This document shows positions 17,294-22,956 of a stretch of DNA of 64,000 nt, piece by piece. The notes under the pieces were generated by a model, which had not been told where the DNA came from, did not search any database, and saw only the letters and a list, made by a program, of their open reading frames with translations. Positions within the stretch are counted from its first letter, which is position 1. Every line of letters begins with the position of its first letter. The stretch covers positions 1-64,000 of the forward strand of contig JACZJV010000110.1 of assembly GCA_014860355.1 (NCBI GenBank), given 5' to 3'. Made by a program: the position numbers and the translations under genes. The stretch comes from Burkholderiales bacterium. Its GTDB lineage: Bacteria; Pseudomonadota; Gammaproteobacteria; Burkholderiales; SG8-39.

Positions 17294-18085
17294 CTAGAGC
17301 TTGGTCGCGGTGATGATCTGAAAGTTGCCGAAAAAATAGGTGGTGCGCTCGCAGCTCCAGCCGCCAGCGTTCTCCAGATAGTTGAGCGGGTCGTGCGTGT
17401 CCCACAGCGCCAGACCCAGCGGTTCGAACACCTTGAAGTAAGTCCAGCTGAGCGCGCGCAGCACCCATAGCTGCGGCCGGTGAAATTCCGCGAGGAACAG
17501 CTTGCCTCCGGGGGCGAGCATGCGACCCGCCTCGTCCAGGGTCTGGCCTTTCAGATGGTGCGGCAGTTCGTGCAGCAGAAAGAATATGACGTTGGCGGCG
17601 ACGCCGTCGTCTTTCAGTTTCATCGATGTGGCGTTGTCTTCGACATATTCCACCTTGCCGCCGTACTCGCGCAGCTTGCTTTTCGCATGTACGAGTTCGT
17701 TCTGGATGATGTCGGCGATGAGCACGCGCTCGGCGCCGGACTCGATCGAAGCTTTCACCACGCGCGGAATCACGTTCCCGAACGCGCAGGAAGTGATCAG
17801 CACCTTGCGGTTTTTCAGATCCATCCGCTTGAGTTCGGAAACGATTTTCGAAACCAGGTGGTGATACTGAAACAGCAGTATGGCCGAAATGATGGGTTGA
17901 AAATCGACCAGTTTGATCAGTCGCATGTTCGAATAGATCGGATACACGTGCGATTTCTCGCCCTGCGAACCCGGCGACAATCCGCGCATTACCAGCGCGC
18001 CCCGAGTCACCACGAAGAAAAACACGCCTGTAGACGCCAGTAGAACAAATACGGCAAAAACACTGCTAATCACCCAGCCGTTCAT
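17294..18085 (-). CDS. rquA: RquA-like class I SAM methyltransferase-fold protein (rhodoquinone biosynthesis)
   Basis: A 263-residue protein with an N-terminal membrane segment (VISSVFAVFVLLASTGVFFF) and a class I methyltransferase fold. The motifs match RquA as I recall it: a degenerate glycine motif (ITSCAFGNVIPRVV) in place of GxGxG, IADIIQNELVHAKSKL, FFLLHELP, LAPGGKLFLAEFHRP and the final RTTYFFGNFQIITATKL. RquA converts ubiquinone to rhodoquinone, the low-potential quinone used with fumarate reductase under low oxygen. The alternative is an uncharacterised UbiE-related methyltransferase. A perfect FNR box (TTGAT-GTAC-ATCAA) with a -10 at class II spacing lies upstream, which fits an anaerobic role. 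It is convergent with the MOT1 transporter and has no adjacent quinone genes. Confidence 0.62.
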   Translation of the reverse strand: MNGWVISSVFAVFVLLASTGVFFFVVTRGALVMRGLSPGSQGEKSHVYPIYSNMRLIKLVDFQPIISAILLFQYHHLVSKIVSELKRMDLKNRKVLITSCAFGNVIPRVVKASIESGAERVLIADIIQNELVHAKSKLREYGGKVEYVEDNATSMKLKDDGVAANVIFFLLHELPHHLKGQTLDEAGRMLAPGGKLFLAEFHRPQLWVLRALSWTYFKVFEPLGLALWDTHDPLNYLENAGGWSCERTTYFFGNFQIITATKL

Positions 18086-18458
18086 CGCGTTTCCTTAAAA
18101 CAATGTGGACCTGTGCTCACGCCCGCTAGTATCGCGGCTTTTTACCAGCCCATCAAGCCGGAATTCGGTCAGCCGCTATGTTGGCGGACCAGGCGTCTTT
18201 GCGTTTTGATGTACATCAAGTCCGAAACGTTGCCTGAAATCGACTTTGACAAGATCGCCGGGCGGCGGGGTCCGGATTGCCCGGTGCGCTCATGCGGGCG
18301 AATTCTTCCCAATCCGGCCGCCACCCGGGCCCTCAATACCGTTACCATTGGAGCCTGTGCGAAACGAGGGGGATCGGCCCCCTCCTGCCCCCTGATGCAG
18401 CGGCTGATTCGGCCATTCAGCCGCAGCCACTGCACCGGTTGCGAACTAAGGAGATTCT
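18086..18458. other. Divergent intergenic region between rquA-like gene and DUF971 gene
   Basis: About 370 bases without a supported gene. It carries the FNR-type promoter for the minus-strand gene (18178-18219). An AAGGAG ribosome site lies just before the ATG at 18459. I see no clear sigma-70 promoter for the plus-strand cluster. A GGGGGATCGGCCCCCTCC dyad at 18368-18386 could form a hairpin in the leader of the plus-strand transcript. Confidence 0.5.
18178..18219 (-). promoter_or_regulatory. Perfect FNR/ANR box with -10 element upstream of the rquA-like gene
   Basis: TTGAT-GTAC-ATCAA (18206-18219) is a perfect match to the FNR consensus. On the minus strand CAACAT (18183-18178) begins exactly 22 nt downstream, which puts the box centre at -41.5 from a start near 18171. 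This is the geometry of class II FNR activation. The implied leader is about 86 bases. Confidence 0.7.
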
Positions 18459-18869
18459 ATGTCAGGGTCAGACAAAACCACCCCATCCCCGACCGAAATC
18501 AAGCTGCATCAGAAATCACGCGTGCTGGAAATCTCGTTCGACGACGCCCAGTGCTTTACCCTGCCATTCGAGTTTCTGCGCGTTTATTCGCCTTCGGCGG
18601 AGGTGCGCGGCCATGGCCCGGGACAGGAAGTCCTGCAGGTCGGCAAGCAGAATGTGGAGATCACCCAAATCGAGCCGGTGGGCTCTTACGCGGTGCAACT
18701 GACGTTTTCCGACGGGCACGACAGCGGGCTTTATTCCTGGGATTATCTGTACCGGCTCGGCGCAAATCAGGACTCGATGTGGAAGCACTACCTGGAGCGC
18801 ATGCAGGAGGCAGGTGCAAGCCGCGTCGCGGCCACGGGCGAGTACGCACAACGCCCCAAGTCGAAGTAG
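18459..18869 (+). CDS. DUF971 (gamma-butyrobetaine hydroxylase N-terminal-like) protein
   Basis: A 136-residue soluble protein of the DUF971 family. Typical phrases are PTEIKLHQKSRVLEISFDD, LPFEFLRVYSPSAEVRGHG, VGSYAVQLTFSDGHDSGLYS and WDYLYRLG. In eukaryotic gamma-butyrobetaine hydroxylase and related proteins this domain is a small N-terminal unit; bacterial stand-alone versions often lie near ubiE or Mrp-type genes and have no settled function. The start follows AAGGAGATTCT. It lies six bases before the radical SAM gene, so the two are almost certainly co-transcribed. Confidence 0.88.
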   Translation: MSGSDKTTPSPTEIKLHQKSRVLEISFDDAQCFTLPFEFLRVYSPSAEVRGHGPGQEVLQVGKQNVEITQIEPVGSYAVQLTFSDGHDSGLYSWDYLYRLGANQDSMWKHYLERMQEAGASRVAATGEYAQRPKSK

Positions 18870-18875
18870 GCGCGC

Positions 18876-20333
18876 ATGGATAGCGGCGGTGATTCCCGTC
18901 TGATCGAAGGCGCCGGGGCGGAGACGCGCGCGACCGGCCGCTTCGAGGTCGTGCTGATCAATCCGTATGAGCTGGGCCGCCAGCCCTTCGCCCTGGCCGA
19001 GCCTGCGGCATGGCTGCAACGCGACGGATTCGAGGTTCGCTGCATCGATCTTTCGCTGCAGCAACTCGATCCGGCCCAGCTTGCAGGCGCGCAGCTGGTG
19101 GCCGTGTATGTCGGCATGCACACCGCGACGCGCATTGCGGTCGAAGCGCTTCCGCGCATCCGCGCGCTGGCGCCGCGGGCGCATTTGTGCGTGTACGGGC
19201 TGTACGCGCCGATGAACCAGCAATTGCTGCGCGCATTGGGCGCGAAAACCATACTGGGTGGAGAAGTCGAACCGGCGCTGGCCGGCCTGGCGCGGCGGCT
19301 GCGCGCGGGAGAGGACTGCGATACGCAGGCCGGGCCGGTGGTGAATCTGGCCAGAATCGAATTTCTCACCCCCGAGCGCTCGGGTCTGCCCGAACTCGCA
19401 CGCTACGCCCATTTGGTCCTGCCCGACGGCAGCAGGAAACGCCTGGGCTTCATCGAGGCCAGCCGGGGCTGCAAGCACTTGTGCCGCCATTGTCCGGTGG
19501 TGCCGGTCTATCAGGGCAAGTTCCGCGTCGTGCCGGTGCCGGTGGTGATGGCGGATATCGCGCAGCAGGTCGCGGCCGGCGCGGCGCACATATCGTTCGG
19601 CGATGCGGATTTCTTCAATGGCAGCACGCATGCCATGAAAGTGCTGGCGGCCATGCACGCGCAATTTCCCGGCCTGAGTTTCGATGCCACGATCAAGATC
19701 CAGCACATCATTGCTCACGCCGAATTGCTGCCCGCGCTCAAGGCGGCGGGCTGCCTGTTCATCACTTCGGCGGTCGAATCGGTGGATGCGCAGGTGTTGC
19801 AGCACCTCGCCAAGAACCATACGCCGGCCGACTTCGAGCACGCGCTGCGGCTGTGCCGCGATGCCGGCATCGCCATGGCGCCGACCTTTGTGCCGTTCAC
19901 GCCGTGGACCAGTCTGGAGGGCTACCTCGAGCTGCTGCGCACGCTGTTGCGCCTCGGTCTGGCGGAGGCGGTGCCGCCGATTCAGCTTTGCATACGCCTG
20001 CTCGTGCCCGAAGGCTCCTGGCTGCTGCGCTTGCCGGGATTCGGCGAAATGATCGAAGCCTTCGATCCGAAGTTGCTGGGCTATCCGTGGCGGCACGCCG
20101 ATGCGCGCGTGGACACGCTGCAACGGGAGCTGCAGGCGCTGGCCGCGCAAGGCGATCGCGACAATCTGCCGCGCAGCCGGATATTTTCGCAGATGTGGGG
20201 GCTCGCCCACGATGCGCTGGGCCTGCGCGCGCCGTTCCTGACAGCGGCGGATTTCGGCGCACCCGTTGCGCACCTGTCCGAGCCCTGGTATTGCTGCGCG
20301 GAACCCACCGAACAGCAATTGCAGAGTTTCTGA
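18876..20333 (+). CDS. CUAEP/CCAEP-tail radical SAM protein with N-terminal B12-binding-like domain
   Basis: A 485-residue radical SAM protein. Residues about 23-145 resemble a B12-binding Rossmann-like domain (VVLINPYELGRQPFALAEPA, VAVYVGMHTATR), but the cobalamin DxHxxG motif is not evident. The radical SAM cluster motif CxxxCxxC is C199, C203, C206 (EASRGCKHLCRHC), after which ISFGDADFFN and SFDATIKIQHI fit the barrel strands. The tail carries WYCCAEPT (C473-C474-A-E-P), the signature of a family named for a CUAEP or CCAEP end, in which some members have selenocysteine in place of the second Cys. This one uses an ordinary TGC codon, so it is the Cys form. The product is unknown. The ATP-grasp gene follows after ten bases. 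Confidence 0.87.
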   Translation: MDSGGDSRLIEGAGAETRATGRFEVVLINPYELGRQPFALAEPAAWLQRDGFEVRCIDLSLQQLDPAQLAGAQLVAVYVGMHTATRIAVEALPRIRALAPRAHLCVYGLYAPMNQQLLRALGAKTILGGEVEPALAGLARRLRAGEDCDTQAGPVVNLARIEFLTPERSGLPELARYAHLVLPDGSRKRLGFIEASRGCKHLCRHCPVVPVYQGKFRVVPVPVVMADIAQQVAAGAAHISFGDADFFNGSTHAMKVLAAMHAQFPGLSFDATIKIQHIIAHAELLPALKAAGCLFITSAVESVDAQVLQHLAKNHTPADFEHALRLCRDAGIAMAPTFVPFTPWTSLEGYLELLRTLLRLGLAEAVPPIQLCIRLLVPEGSWLLRLPGFGEMIEAFDPKLLGYPWRHADARVDTLQRELQALAAQGDRDNLPRSRIFSQMWGLAHDALGLRAPFLTAADFGAPVAHLSEPWYCCAEPTEQQLQSF

Positions 20334-20343
20334 GGCTGCCGCC

Positions 20344-21591
20344 GTGAAGCGCGTGCTGCTGCTGCTGCCCACCACCGGTTACCGCAACGAGGATTTTCTT
20401 GCCGCGGCCAGGCGTCTGGACGTCGAAGTCATCAGCGTCGCGAACTACTGCCACCAACTTGCGCCCTCCTGGGGCATGAGTCCGATACGTTCGGTTCCGT
20501 TCGACCAGCCGGTGGCCGCGCTGAAACAATTGCAGTCCGCGCTCGGGCGCAAGCCGGACGCGGTGCTGGCAGTGGACGACAGCGGCCTGGACCTGGCGGC
20601 CTTGTTATGCGAATACCTCTACCTCCCGGGCAATTCTCCCGAGGCGGTGCGGCGCACGCGCGACAAACTGGCGTTCAGGGACCTGCTGCAGGGCGCCGGC
20701 CTGCACTACCCGGATTTCATTCGCCTGGCCAACGATGCACAGACCCGGTCGCTGCCGCCGCCGCTGCGCTTTCCGGTGGTGGTCAAGGCGCGCCGCCTCA
20801 GCGCCAGTCGCGGCGTGATCCGCGCCGATACGCGCCAGGCATACGCGCGCGCCGTGCAATGGGTGCGCGGCATCCAGGCCAAAGCCGACCGCGACGCGGC
20901 CGCGCTGGGCGTGATCGTGGAGAACTTCATCCCCGGCAGCGAACATGCGCTCGAAGGACTGTTGCGCAATGGACGCCTGCAGGTGCTGGCGCTGATCGAC
21001 AAGCCCGATCCGCTGGACGGCCCCTATTTCGAGGAAACGATGTACGTCACGCCATCGCGCCTGGCATCGGAGCGCCAGGCGCAGATCGCGCAGACGGTAC
21101 AGCGCGCCTGCACCCTGGCAGGACTGGAAAGCGGCCCCGTACACGCGGAAATGCGTGTAAATGAACAAGGTGTATGGCTGCTCGAAATCGCTGCGCGTTC
21201 CATCGGCGGCCTGTGCGGCAGGATGCTGCATCCGGTACTGGGCATGAGTCTGGAGGAATTGATCCTGCGCGATGCGCTGAACCTCCCTGCGCCCGCGCCG
21301 GGGGGTAGTGCCGCGAACGGCGTGATGATGATCCCGATTCCGCGGCAGGGCATTTTTCAGGGCGTGCGCGGGCGCGAAACTGCGCTCGCGCTCGCCGGCA
21401 TCAGCGACATCCGCATCAGCGCCATTGCGGGCCAGCTGATTTCGGCGCCACCGGAGGGCGCGGGCTACCTGGGATTCATTTTCGCGCAGGGGGCCAGACC
21501 CGACGAGGTCGAGTCCAGCTTGCGCCGCGCGCTGCAGGCGCTGGAGTTCGACATACAGACGGAAATTCCGCTGAGCGAACTGCGGATCTGA
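20344..21591 (+). CDS. ATP-grasp domain protein
   Basis: A 415-residue ATP-grasp ligase-like protein. It opens with KRVLLLLPTTGYRNEDFLAA (pre-ATP-grasp Rossmann part). The grasp region has RRTRDKLAFRDLLQGAGLHYPDF, FPVVVKARRLSASRGVIRA (ATP-binding Lys strand), VENFIPGSEHALEGLL and VHAEMRVNEQGVWLLEIAARSIGG (Mg-binding E...E). Such enzymes form an acyl-phosphate and join it to an amine, thiol or other nucleophile. The C-terminal FDIQTEIPL part resembles the lid of carboxylate-amine ligases related to BacD. The GTG start at 20344 is set by GAGG, which overlaps the stop of the radical SAM gene, so translation is coupled. It probably modifies a small molecule or peptide together with that enzyme; substrate unknown. 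Confidence 0.85.
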   Translation: MKRVLLLLPTTGYRNEDFLAAARRLDVEVISVANYCHQLAPSWGMSPIRSVPFDQPVAALKQLQSALGRKPDAVLAVDDSGLDLAALLCEYLYLPGNSPEAVRRTRDKLAFRDLLQGAGLHYPDFIRLANDAQTRSLPPPLRFPVVVKARRLSASRGVIRADTRQAYARAVQWVRGIQAKADRDAAALGVIVENFIPGSEHALEGLLRNGRLQVLALIDKPDPLDGPYFEETMYVTPSRLASERQAQIAQTVQRACTLAGLESGPVHAEMRVNEQGVWLLEIAARSIGGLCGRMLHPVLGMSLEELILRDALNLPAPAPGGSAANGVMMIPIPRQGIFQGVRGRETALALAGISDIRISAIAGQLISAPPEGAGYLGFIFAQGARPDEVESSLRRALQALEFDIQTEIPLSELRI

Positions 21592-21645: not shown

Positions 21646-22956
21646 TTACCAGTAGCGCATCGCGCCGCGGTATAGCGTGCCCAGGTCGCTTTCGCTGATG
21701 TCGCGCGGCGCGTTGGTCAGCAGGCGTTGCTGTGCCCAGGCGCCCTTGGTGAGGCCGGCAACGTCGGCTTCGCCGTAGCCCACGCCGCTTACGCCATTGG
21801 GGATGCCGGTGGCTTTCATCATCTTGATCAGCTGCGCGGAGACAATTTCGGCTGCGTCCGCGGCAGTTGCGCCCTTGGTTTCGGCGCCGAGGCAGGCTGC
21901 GCCGTGGATATGACGCTCGGGGCAGGCGCTCGCGGTGAAACGGAACACCGAAGGCGCGTTGACGATCACGCTCATGCCGTGCGGCACCATCGGTTCTTCC
22001 TGCGGGTAGCCCTCGGGCCGGAAGTCGCGCACCAGCCCCGCCACCGAGTAGGCCATGCCGTGGGGCACGTGCACCCCGGAGTTGCCGAAGGCGATGCCCG
22101 CGAGGGTGGCTGCATACATCATCTCGTCGCGCGCTTCGTGGTCGCTCGCGTCATTCACCGCGCGCTCGAGGTACTGGCCCAGACGTTTCAGTGCCGCTAC
22201 ACAGCCAAGGTCGCTCCAGGGGTTGGCCCCCTGGCTCATCGGGCGCAGCGAGGGCGATTTCGAAGCGGCGCGGCGCGTATACGGTCTGGCGGTATAGGAT
22301 TCGAGCGCATGCGAAAGCACGTCGAAGCCGCTCGCCGCGACGACGTTCTTGGGCAGCGTATAGGTGGCGGCCGGGTCGATCAGCGCGAGCGACGGCTTGA
22401 GGCGCCTGGAGGCGATGCCGGTTTTGACCTGCATCGCCAGCAGGTCGAAAATGGTGATGCCGGTGCACTCCGAGCCGGTGCCGCAGGTGGTGGGGCAGGC
22501 GATATGCGGTTTGAGCGGGCCGGGCACGGGCTTGCCCGCGCCTATGGGTGCGTTGACGTAGTCGAGAAAGTCCGCCGGCCAGGTGGCGTAGAGGTTGGCC
22601 GCCTTACAGGTGTCGATGACCGAACCCCCGCCCACGGAAACATAGCCGTCGAATTTGCCCTCCGCGGCGAATCTCGCCGCGGCGATGAAGGACTGGTCGG
22701 TCGGTTCGACCTTGACCTCGTCGTATATCGCCACATCCACGCCCGACGCCCTGAGCGCATCGCGCACCTGGGCCACGTAGGGCAGGCCGGCCAGCCGCTG
22801 GTCGGTGAACAGCGCGACCCGGCTCATGCCCAGGTGCCTGGCGTGTTCGCCGGCCTCCTTGAGCACGCCGTGGCCGAAGCTGATGCTGGAAATGTCGACG
22901 GCAAATACGCTTTCCCCACCCTCGGCCGTGACGTAGTAGTTGTGACAACAGGACAT
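21646..22956 (-). CDS. Hydroxyacid-oxoacid transhydrogenase (iron-type alcohol dehydrogenase family)
   Basis: A 436-residue iron-containing dehydrogenase that most resembles ADHFE1-type hydroxyacid-oxoacid transhydrogenase, which couples oxidation of 4-hydroxybutyrate to reduction of 2-oxoglutarate. Diagnostic pieces are [23 protein letters not shown], the nucleotide loop [34 protein letters not shown], and the metal-binding His-rich strand [12 protein letters not shown]...VPHGMSV. The length is normal for this subgroup, which is longer than simple iron ADHs. An AGGAG ribosome site precedes the ATG. It is divergent from livJ. The 4-hydroxybutyrate link to the AbfD-like protein at 55904 is tempting, but that protein has lost cluster ligands. 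Confidence 0.85.

Follow-up and report, generated by a model that had tools for sequence, protein, structure and literature searches.

The window analyzed here is a 64,000-nucleotide stretch of DNA from a Burkholderiales bacterium (positions 1 to 64,000 of the forward strand of contig JACZJV010000110.1, assembly GCA_014860355.1). It carries an operon of three genes, which encode a DUF971 protein, a radical S-adenosylmethionine (SAM) protein of the CUAEP/CCAEP-tail family (rSAM), and an ATP-grasp ligase. Comparison across genomes shows that the rSAM and the ligase are linked beyond chance, and that the ligase belongs more broadly to a gammaproteobacterial module that also includes an A-type iron-sulfur (Fe-S) carrier and YggX, an Fe(2+)-trafficking protein. 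The rSAM and the ATP-grasp enzyme probably act in the same pathway. Our reading of that pathway, which we put forward tentatively and with slightly more doubt than confidence, is that the rSAM uses the cysteines of its tail to make an unusual amino acid, which the ligase turns into a dipeptide-like metabolite used in iron and Fe-S handling.

In a class sample of 369 genomes, an rSAM over the family cut-off was found in 23, here called CCAEP-positive. Homologs of the ligase (E≤1e-40) occur in 65 of the 369, being present in 18 of the 23 CCAEP-positive genomes versus 47 of the 346 CCAEP-negative ones (Fisher p 5e-11); at E≤1e-20 the CCAEP-positive count becomes 19/23. The 2 genes are mostly not adjacent in this sample, with the ligase lying in the 1.5 kb flanks at 5/23 class loci, the window included. 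A scan of named genomes returned at least 545 rSAM relatives, of which the best 80 were kept and together with the window give 81 loci. Among these the ligase lies within 3 kb of the rSAM in 50, and DUF971 is upstream in 34. Of the 81, 56 are well flanked (at least 2 kb upstream and at least 2.5 kb downstream), and on the same strand these have the ATP-grasp gene directly downstream in 33, DUF971 directly upstream in 28, both in 25, and neither in 20. The approximate gap between rSAM and ligase genes is 4-16 bases in 26 of 38 cases. The gene-neighborhood search suggested in the original prediction thus recovers the rSAM/ATP-grasp pair as a recurrent one. YggX lies within 2 kb of the rSAM at 8 of the well-flanked loci (15/81 overall).

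Some of these loci have features of their own. A gene of the fructosamine-kinase family overlaps or follows the ligase gene in 14 Thiobacillus-type loci (e.g., L110:10599-11534), and at L060, L095, and L102 an open reading frame without a Pfam or NCBIfam match lies between rSAM and ligase (e.g., L102:2206-3228). Three metagenome-assembled genomes titled Acidobacteria, Bordetella parapertussis, and Rhizobium (L061, L078, and L115) carry betaproteobacteria-like loci and are possibly misnamed or mixed bins.

The neighborhood of the ligase was surveyed in 37 opened stretches, some of them short, 17 from CCAEP-positive and 20 from CCAEP-negative genomes; eight ligase-holding CCAEP loci fall outside these counts, five of which helped define the carrier cluster. 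An A-type Fe-S carrier is within 2 genes of the ligase in 27/37 stretches, with two further cases in genomes G264 and G259, and YggX is found in 26/37. A YggX label at L178 was false on checking and was dropped. The ligase-adjacent carriers are ErpA-like (e.g., L160:6503-6919), and the 32 C-termini read have a Gly/Cys-rich extension. This special carrier (E≤2e-28) was present in 17 of the 22 CCAEP-positive genomes searched. The operon order is carrier, ligase, CCAEP rSAM at L096 and L097, while at L172, L173, L177, and L187 it is carrier, ligase, and a second kind of rSAM.

This second rSAM (L173:5988-7064, with homologs at L192-L221) is a divergent paralog of the AmmeMemoRadiSam family, TIGR04337, which it matches with 232 bits against a cut-off of 220. 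It belongs to the same subfamily as the canonical members listed, whose scores of about 628-675 bits lie far above its own, but beyond the region that matches the profile it has a tail rich in cysteines. The C-termini contain GCDCA in 30/30 sequences and C-x3-CC in 28/30, with C-x4-CC in L207 and L211, giving five tail cysteines in most members. Genomes with this protein (E≤1e-90) make up 41 of the 47 that have the ligase without the CCAEP rSAM, compared to 0/23 CCAEP-positive genomes and 0/70 controls lacking both; 7 of these controls come from families with positive genomes. By coordinates, 13 of the 41 are within 2 kb of the ligase, and YggX occurs in 14 of the 20 opened stretches in which the second rSAM stands away from the ligase. 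The 65 ligase-containing genomes therefore divide into 18 with the CCAEP rSAM, 41 with the second rSAM, 6 with neither, and 0 with both. The original prediction had named other partners of the radical SAM protein as a refuting condition; along that line, the ligase does act with another partner, a radical SAM protein of a different subfamily that likewise has a Cys-Cys tail.

The rSAM of the window (18876-20333, + strand, 485 residues) is a member of the CUAEP/CCAEP-tail family as originally proposed, passing the NF040546 profile with 595.3 bits (cut-off 500). The second-best model, NF040542 for ArsL, gave 248.1 bits, below its cut-off of 450, and all remaining models gave at most 40 bits; in Pfam, Radical_SAM alone was reported. 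The tail reads ...SEPWYCCAEPTEQQLQSF. In an alignment of 75 sequences, the window and 74 of the 80 relatives, the tail residues W471, Y472, C473, C474, A475, E476, P477, and T478 (20286-20309, + strand) are invariant, position 470 being excepted. The CX3CX2C cysteines C199, C203, and C206, predicted to bind the SAM cluster, are also invariant, and beyond these and C473/C474 there is no invariant cysteine. An AlphaFold2 model (mean pLDDT 92.6, falling to 73-78 in the last 15 residues) has AprD4 as its best Foldseek match, followed by TsrM, OxsB, and MgmA, and the modeled fold is of the B12-rSAM type. AprD4 is not known to need cobalamin. A profile search found no solved relative at E≤1e-10, while a single-sequence search gave AprD4 at 9.7e-07.

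Selenocysteine in some tails, also mentioned in the original prediction, is suggested by a Thermomicrobium roseum member on plasmid NC_011961.1 (L149:7935-9371). Its annotated protein ends in WFC, the next codon is an in-frame TGA, and Ala-Glu-Pro follows, so this is probably a selenoprotein with a shortened annotation, with TGA at the position of the second tail cysteine. A hairpin search after the TGA for a SECIS-like fold gave a z of -1.2, which falls short of establishing one. Selenium as the general atom of the family was rejected, with selD over cut-off in 1/23 CCAEP-positive genomes. That one is the window's own, where there are two selD matches over cut-off (G000:C137:9146-10072 and G000:C91:76458-77381) and the other 22 have none.

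The third gene (20344-21591, + strand, 415 residues) is predicted to encode an amide-forming ATP-grasp enzyme of the L-amino-acid-ligase type, in keeping with the original remark that ATP-grasp enzymes form amide, ester, or thioester bonds. It matches PF13535 (ATP-grasp_4, 104 bits, gathering 27) and PF18603 (LAL_C2, 50.8 bits, gathering 29.4), and the best structural matches of its model (pLDDT 89.6) are BL00235 and BacD, both L-amino acid ligases, while RizA ranks sixth. The resemblance to these ligases lies in the domains and the fold; identity is about 25%, and the window's ligase is instead linked to rSAM and Fe-S genes. On this footing, amino-acid ligation is somewhat more likely than not. 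Pairs of an rSAM and an ATP-grasp enzyme are known in kind from pyrrolysine biosynthesis, where the radical SAM enzyme PylB is followed by the ATP-grasp amino acid ligase PylC. PylB is a weak fold match to the window's rSAM (rank 31), and the families listed for the window's ligase do not include PylC.

ArsL of arsinothricin biosynthesis, which the original prediction did not name, is the nearest characterized relative of the window's rSAM. The 2 are homologous and have C-terminal vicinal cysteines in common, with identities of 28-33% over about 400 residues to five ArsL-type proteins. A Pantoea ArsL-type protein shows the reverse order of matches (NF040542 642 bits, NF040546 298, next 59). 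The tails differ, with WYCCAEP in the window's rSAM, which ends WYCCAEPTEQQLQSF where ArsL-type proteins end RCCLKC. ArsL loci contain ars genes, whereas none is among the recurrent neighbor clusters annotated at CCAEP loci; arsenic as the general atom was rejected on this ground, weakly, as the annotation covered shared neighbors and not unshared ones. The window neighbors searched likewise include no ars genes. Seven of 16 ArsL/RCCLKC plasmid matches were opened, and at six of these loci (Alicyclobacillus, two Priestia, two Pantoea, and Klebsiella) an ATP-grasp gene lies no more than 5 kb away, while the Pseudomonas amygdali locus has none in that range. ATP-grasp genes stand inside the ArsL-type arsenic clusters L151, L152, L153, L154, L272, and L273, and a possible role for them is that of an arsinothricin-peptide ligase. 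For ArsL, PMC8552651 proposes 3-amino-3-carboxypropyl transfer to As(III), and PMC12159101 describes a radical transfer of this group to arsenic catalyzed by a radical SAM enzyme.

By analogy to ArsL, the rSAM would cleave SAM and join a SAM-derived fragment, 3-amino-3-carboxypropyl, to an atom or group held by the Cys-Cys tail (Cys-Sec in some members), and alkylation of this atom or group would yield an unusual amino acid. ArsL-like formation of such a carbon-heteroatom bond at the tail is possible and somewhat doubtful. The ATP-grasp enzyme, going by its family and fold, would then activate a carboxylate with ATP and couple the unusual amino acid to another. The product may finally take part, in the manner of glutathione, in the handling of iron or Fe-S clusters, for which the gene neighbors are our guide, and we see this role as evenly balanced between right and wrong. 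A glutathione-like function is an analogy; PMC4554457 relates glutathione to the labile iron pool. DUF971 would be an accessory of the betaproteobacterial version of the pathway, perhaps in Fe-S delivery.

The original prediction had proposed a radical modification and an ATP-driven ligation with DUF971 as accessory, to be refuted if the 3 families did not co-occur beyond chance. The rSAM/ligase part of this stands, in 18/23 versus 47/346 genomes and 33/56 loci, while DUF971 is optional: 284/369 class genomes carry PF06155, including 22 of the 23 CCAEP-positive ones (all except G259), yet DUF971 flanks the rSAM in 1/23 class members, which is the window, and complete trios cluster mainly in a single betaproteobacterial section of the rSAM tree. 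For these reasons we regard the rSAM/ligase pair as well supported and DUF971 as a clade-level neighbor, largely of one clade. At a minimum, the tree calls for 10 changes of DUF971 and 6 of the ligase; an independent-pairs test of DUF971 with the ligase had 4 pairs with branch support to draw on, which is not enough to decide.

These distributions also bear on whether DUF971 belongs to the pathway at all. The pair may have settled in a ubiquitous betaproteobacterial DUF971-ubiE locus, with DUF971 incidental to it, a serious contender that we nevertheless lean against. The commonness of PF06155, its single case among the class members, and its restriction mostly to one clade, with losses, all favor this explanation, as does the position of the pair in a ubiE region at L060, L079, L095, and L102; the first three of these also have Tim44 and SCP2 genes, with DUF971 within the ubiE-Tim44-SCP2 region. 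Against it, DUF971 is kept at an approximate distance of 0-15 bases upstream of the rSAM in 23/33 cases while the other flanks change, being Suf genes at L054, YggX at L061 and L076, and ubiE at L060 and L079. Thiobacillus loci have cytochrome c and Sel1 genes as flanks. The DUF971 protein of the window is a typical PF06155 protein, the sole copy found in its own genome, and its relatives in the PDB are uncharacterized. According to PMC7980591, the Fe-S scaffold HCF101 contains a fused DUF971 domain whose function there is called elusive; the CxCxxC motif that this paper reports is absent from the window's DUF971, which has one cysteine.

To return to the proposed route from an unusual amino acid to a dipeptide-like product, several observations weigh against it. 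In five of the 23 CCAEP-positive genomes no ligase reaches E≤1e-40 (4/23 at E≤1e-20), and no annotated ATP-grasp gene lies within 8 kb of the T. roseum member. Neither neighbor is present at 20 of the 56 well-flanked loci, and six ligase-containing genomes (G011, G028, G087, G090, G099, and G291) have neither rSAM. The special A-type carrier is missing from two genomes that have the ligase, the window's own and G334, and in G147 the carrier is found at a contig end with no ligase. The positive genomes of the 2 rSAM types span 23 and 15 families with none in common, and therefore their mutual exclusion may come from a lineage effect. The four ArsL-locus ligases compared share only 23-25% identity with the window's ligase where they align, so those loci may have acquired their pairing by convergence; the combination of an ArsL-like rSAM and an ATP-grasp enzyme resembling amino acid ligases recurs in two settings, perhaps convergently. 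More generally, the comparisons show that the genes pair, which proteins are homologous, that the ligase has two alternative tail-cysteine rSAM partners, and that Fe-S and iron genes lie nearby, whereas the reaction, the atom bound by the tail, and the product are proposals, and the role in iron handling is drawn entirely from the neighbors, namely YggX, the A-type carrier, the Suf genes of L054, and DUF971.

A different use of the tail has to be weighed as well. The cysteine pair could be a redox relay or a ligand of an auxiliary Fe-S cluster, with the rSAM acting on a small substrate by ordinary 5'-deoxyadenosyl chemistry, either ahead of the ligation step or following it. Cys-Sec, which can replace the Cys-Cys pair, occurs in redox-active tails of other enzymes, the five tail cysteines of most second rSAMs would be enough for a cluster, and Fe-S genes are neighbors. 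The CCAEP family, in contrast, has only two invariant tail cysteines and, the SAM-cluster cysteines aside, no others that are invariant, and we consider this explanation unlikely. Less likely still is protein maturation, in which the rSAM would modify a protein, possibly the A-type carrier or YggX, and the ATP-grasp enzyme would add an amino acid without any free metabolite: the Gly/Cys-rich extension of the carrier beside the ligase and the recurrence of YggX beside the ligase and the second rSAM are in its favor, but the window's genome has rSAM and ligase with no such carrier found at an E better than 1.2e-9, and the ligase resembles enzymes acting on free amino acids, not protein ligases.

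The layout of the operon agrees with the original description of three closely spaced genes. The DUF971 gene (18459-18869, + strand, 136 residues; open reading frame call, Pfam 114.7 bits against a gathering threshold of 22.8 for PF06155, GBBH-like_N) is preceded by a predicted ribosome-binding site, GGAG, at 18450-18453 (+ strand). It is separated from the rSAM gene by 6 bases (18870-18875), and the rSAM gene from the ATP-grasp gene by 10 (20334-20343). The predicted ribosome-binding site of the latter, GAGG at 20332-20335 (+ strand), overlaps the rSAM stop TGA at 20331-20333, as had been noted. The GTG start at 20344 is preferred over an in-frame upstream TTG because the consensus of the aligned relatives starts at the GTG position. 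The original finding of no precursor peptide between or just after the genes also held, with no gene for a ribosomally synthesized and post-translationally modified peptide in the operon, whose gaps are 6, 10, and 54 bases, the 372 bases upstream not having been tested for conserved small open reading frames. The 54 bases separate the ATP-grasp gene from a convergent iron-containing alcohol dehydrogenase gene assigned by family search (21646-22956, - strand). Upstream and divergent is a UbiE/RquA-like methyltransferase gene (17294-18085, - strand; RquA model 112 bits, cut-off 175), beyond which lies a gene for a MOT1-type molybdate transporter. The methyltransferase cluster recurs at 4/81 loci, the window and its nearest relatives. 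A viral source was rejected, with no relative in viral contigs by the patterns used.

Within the open literature searched, the rSAM/ligase family and its module are undescribed. Among open PubMed Central papers, those listed for the family contained neither the CUAEP nor the CCAEP name, no paper was found for CUAEP-tail, CUAEP with selenoprotein, RCCLKC, NF040546, or NF040542, and in the portion of that literature surveyed neither YggX nor arsinothricin was found together with ATP-grasp. If our reading is true, it would supply the CUAEP/CCAEP family, so far unsolved, with a first partner in a pathway and a reaction that can be tested, and chemistry of the ArsL type may extend beyond arsenic. 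Since one ligase goes with either of two tail-cysteine radical enzymes, the pathway question is directly testable. A shared new iron-related metabolite is a larger claim than the pairing of rSAM and ATP-grasp. In its fullest form, which we think rather improbable at present, it would be a widespread low-molecular-weight peptide of Gamma- and Betaproteobacteria, a glutathione-like iron and Fe-S ligand with a new carbon-heteroatom bond, made by the ligase with one of two interchangeable kinds of tail-cysteine rSAM and working with YggX and the A-type carrier. Already on our main reading, if right, bacterial iron and Fe-S handling, in which YggX and DUF971 still lack clear mechanisms, would gain a possible small-molecule component.

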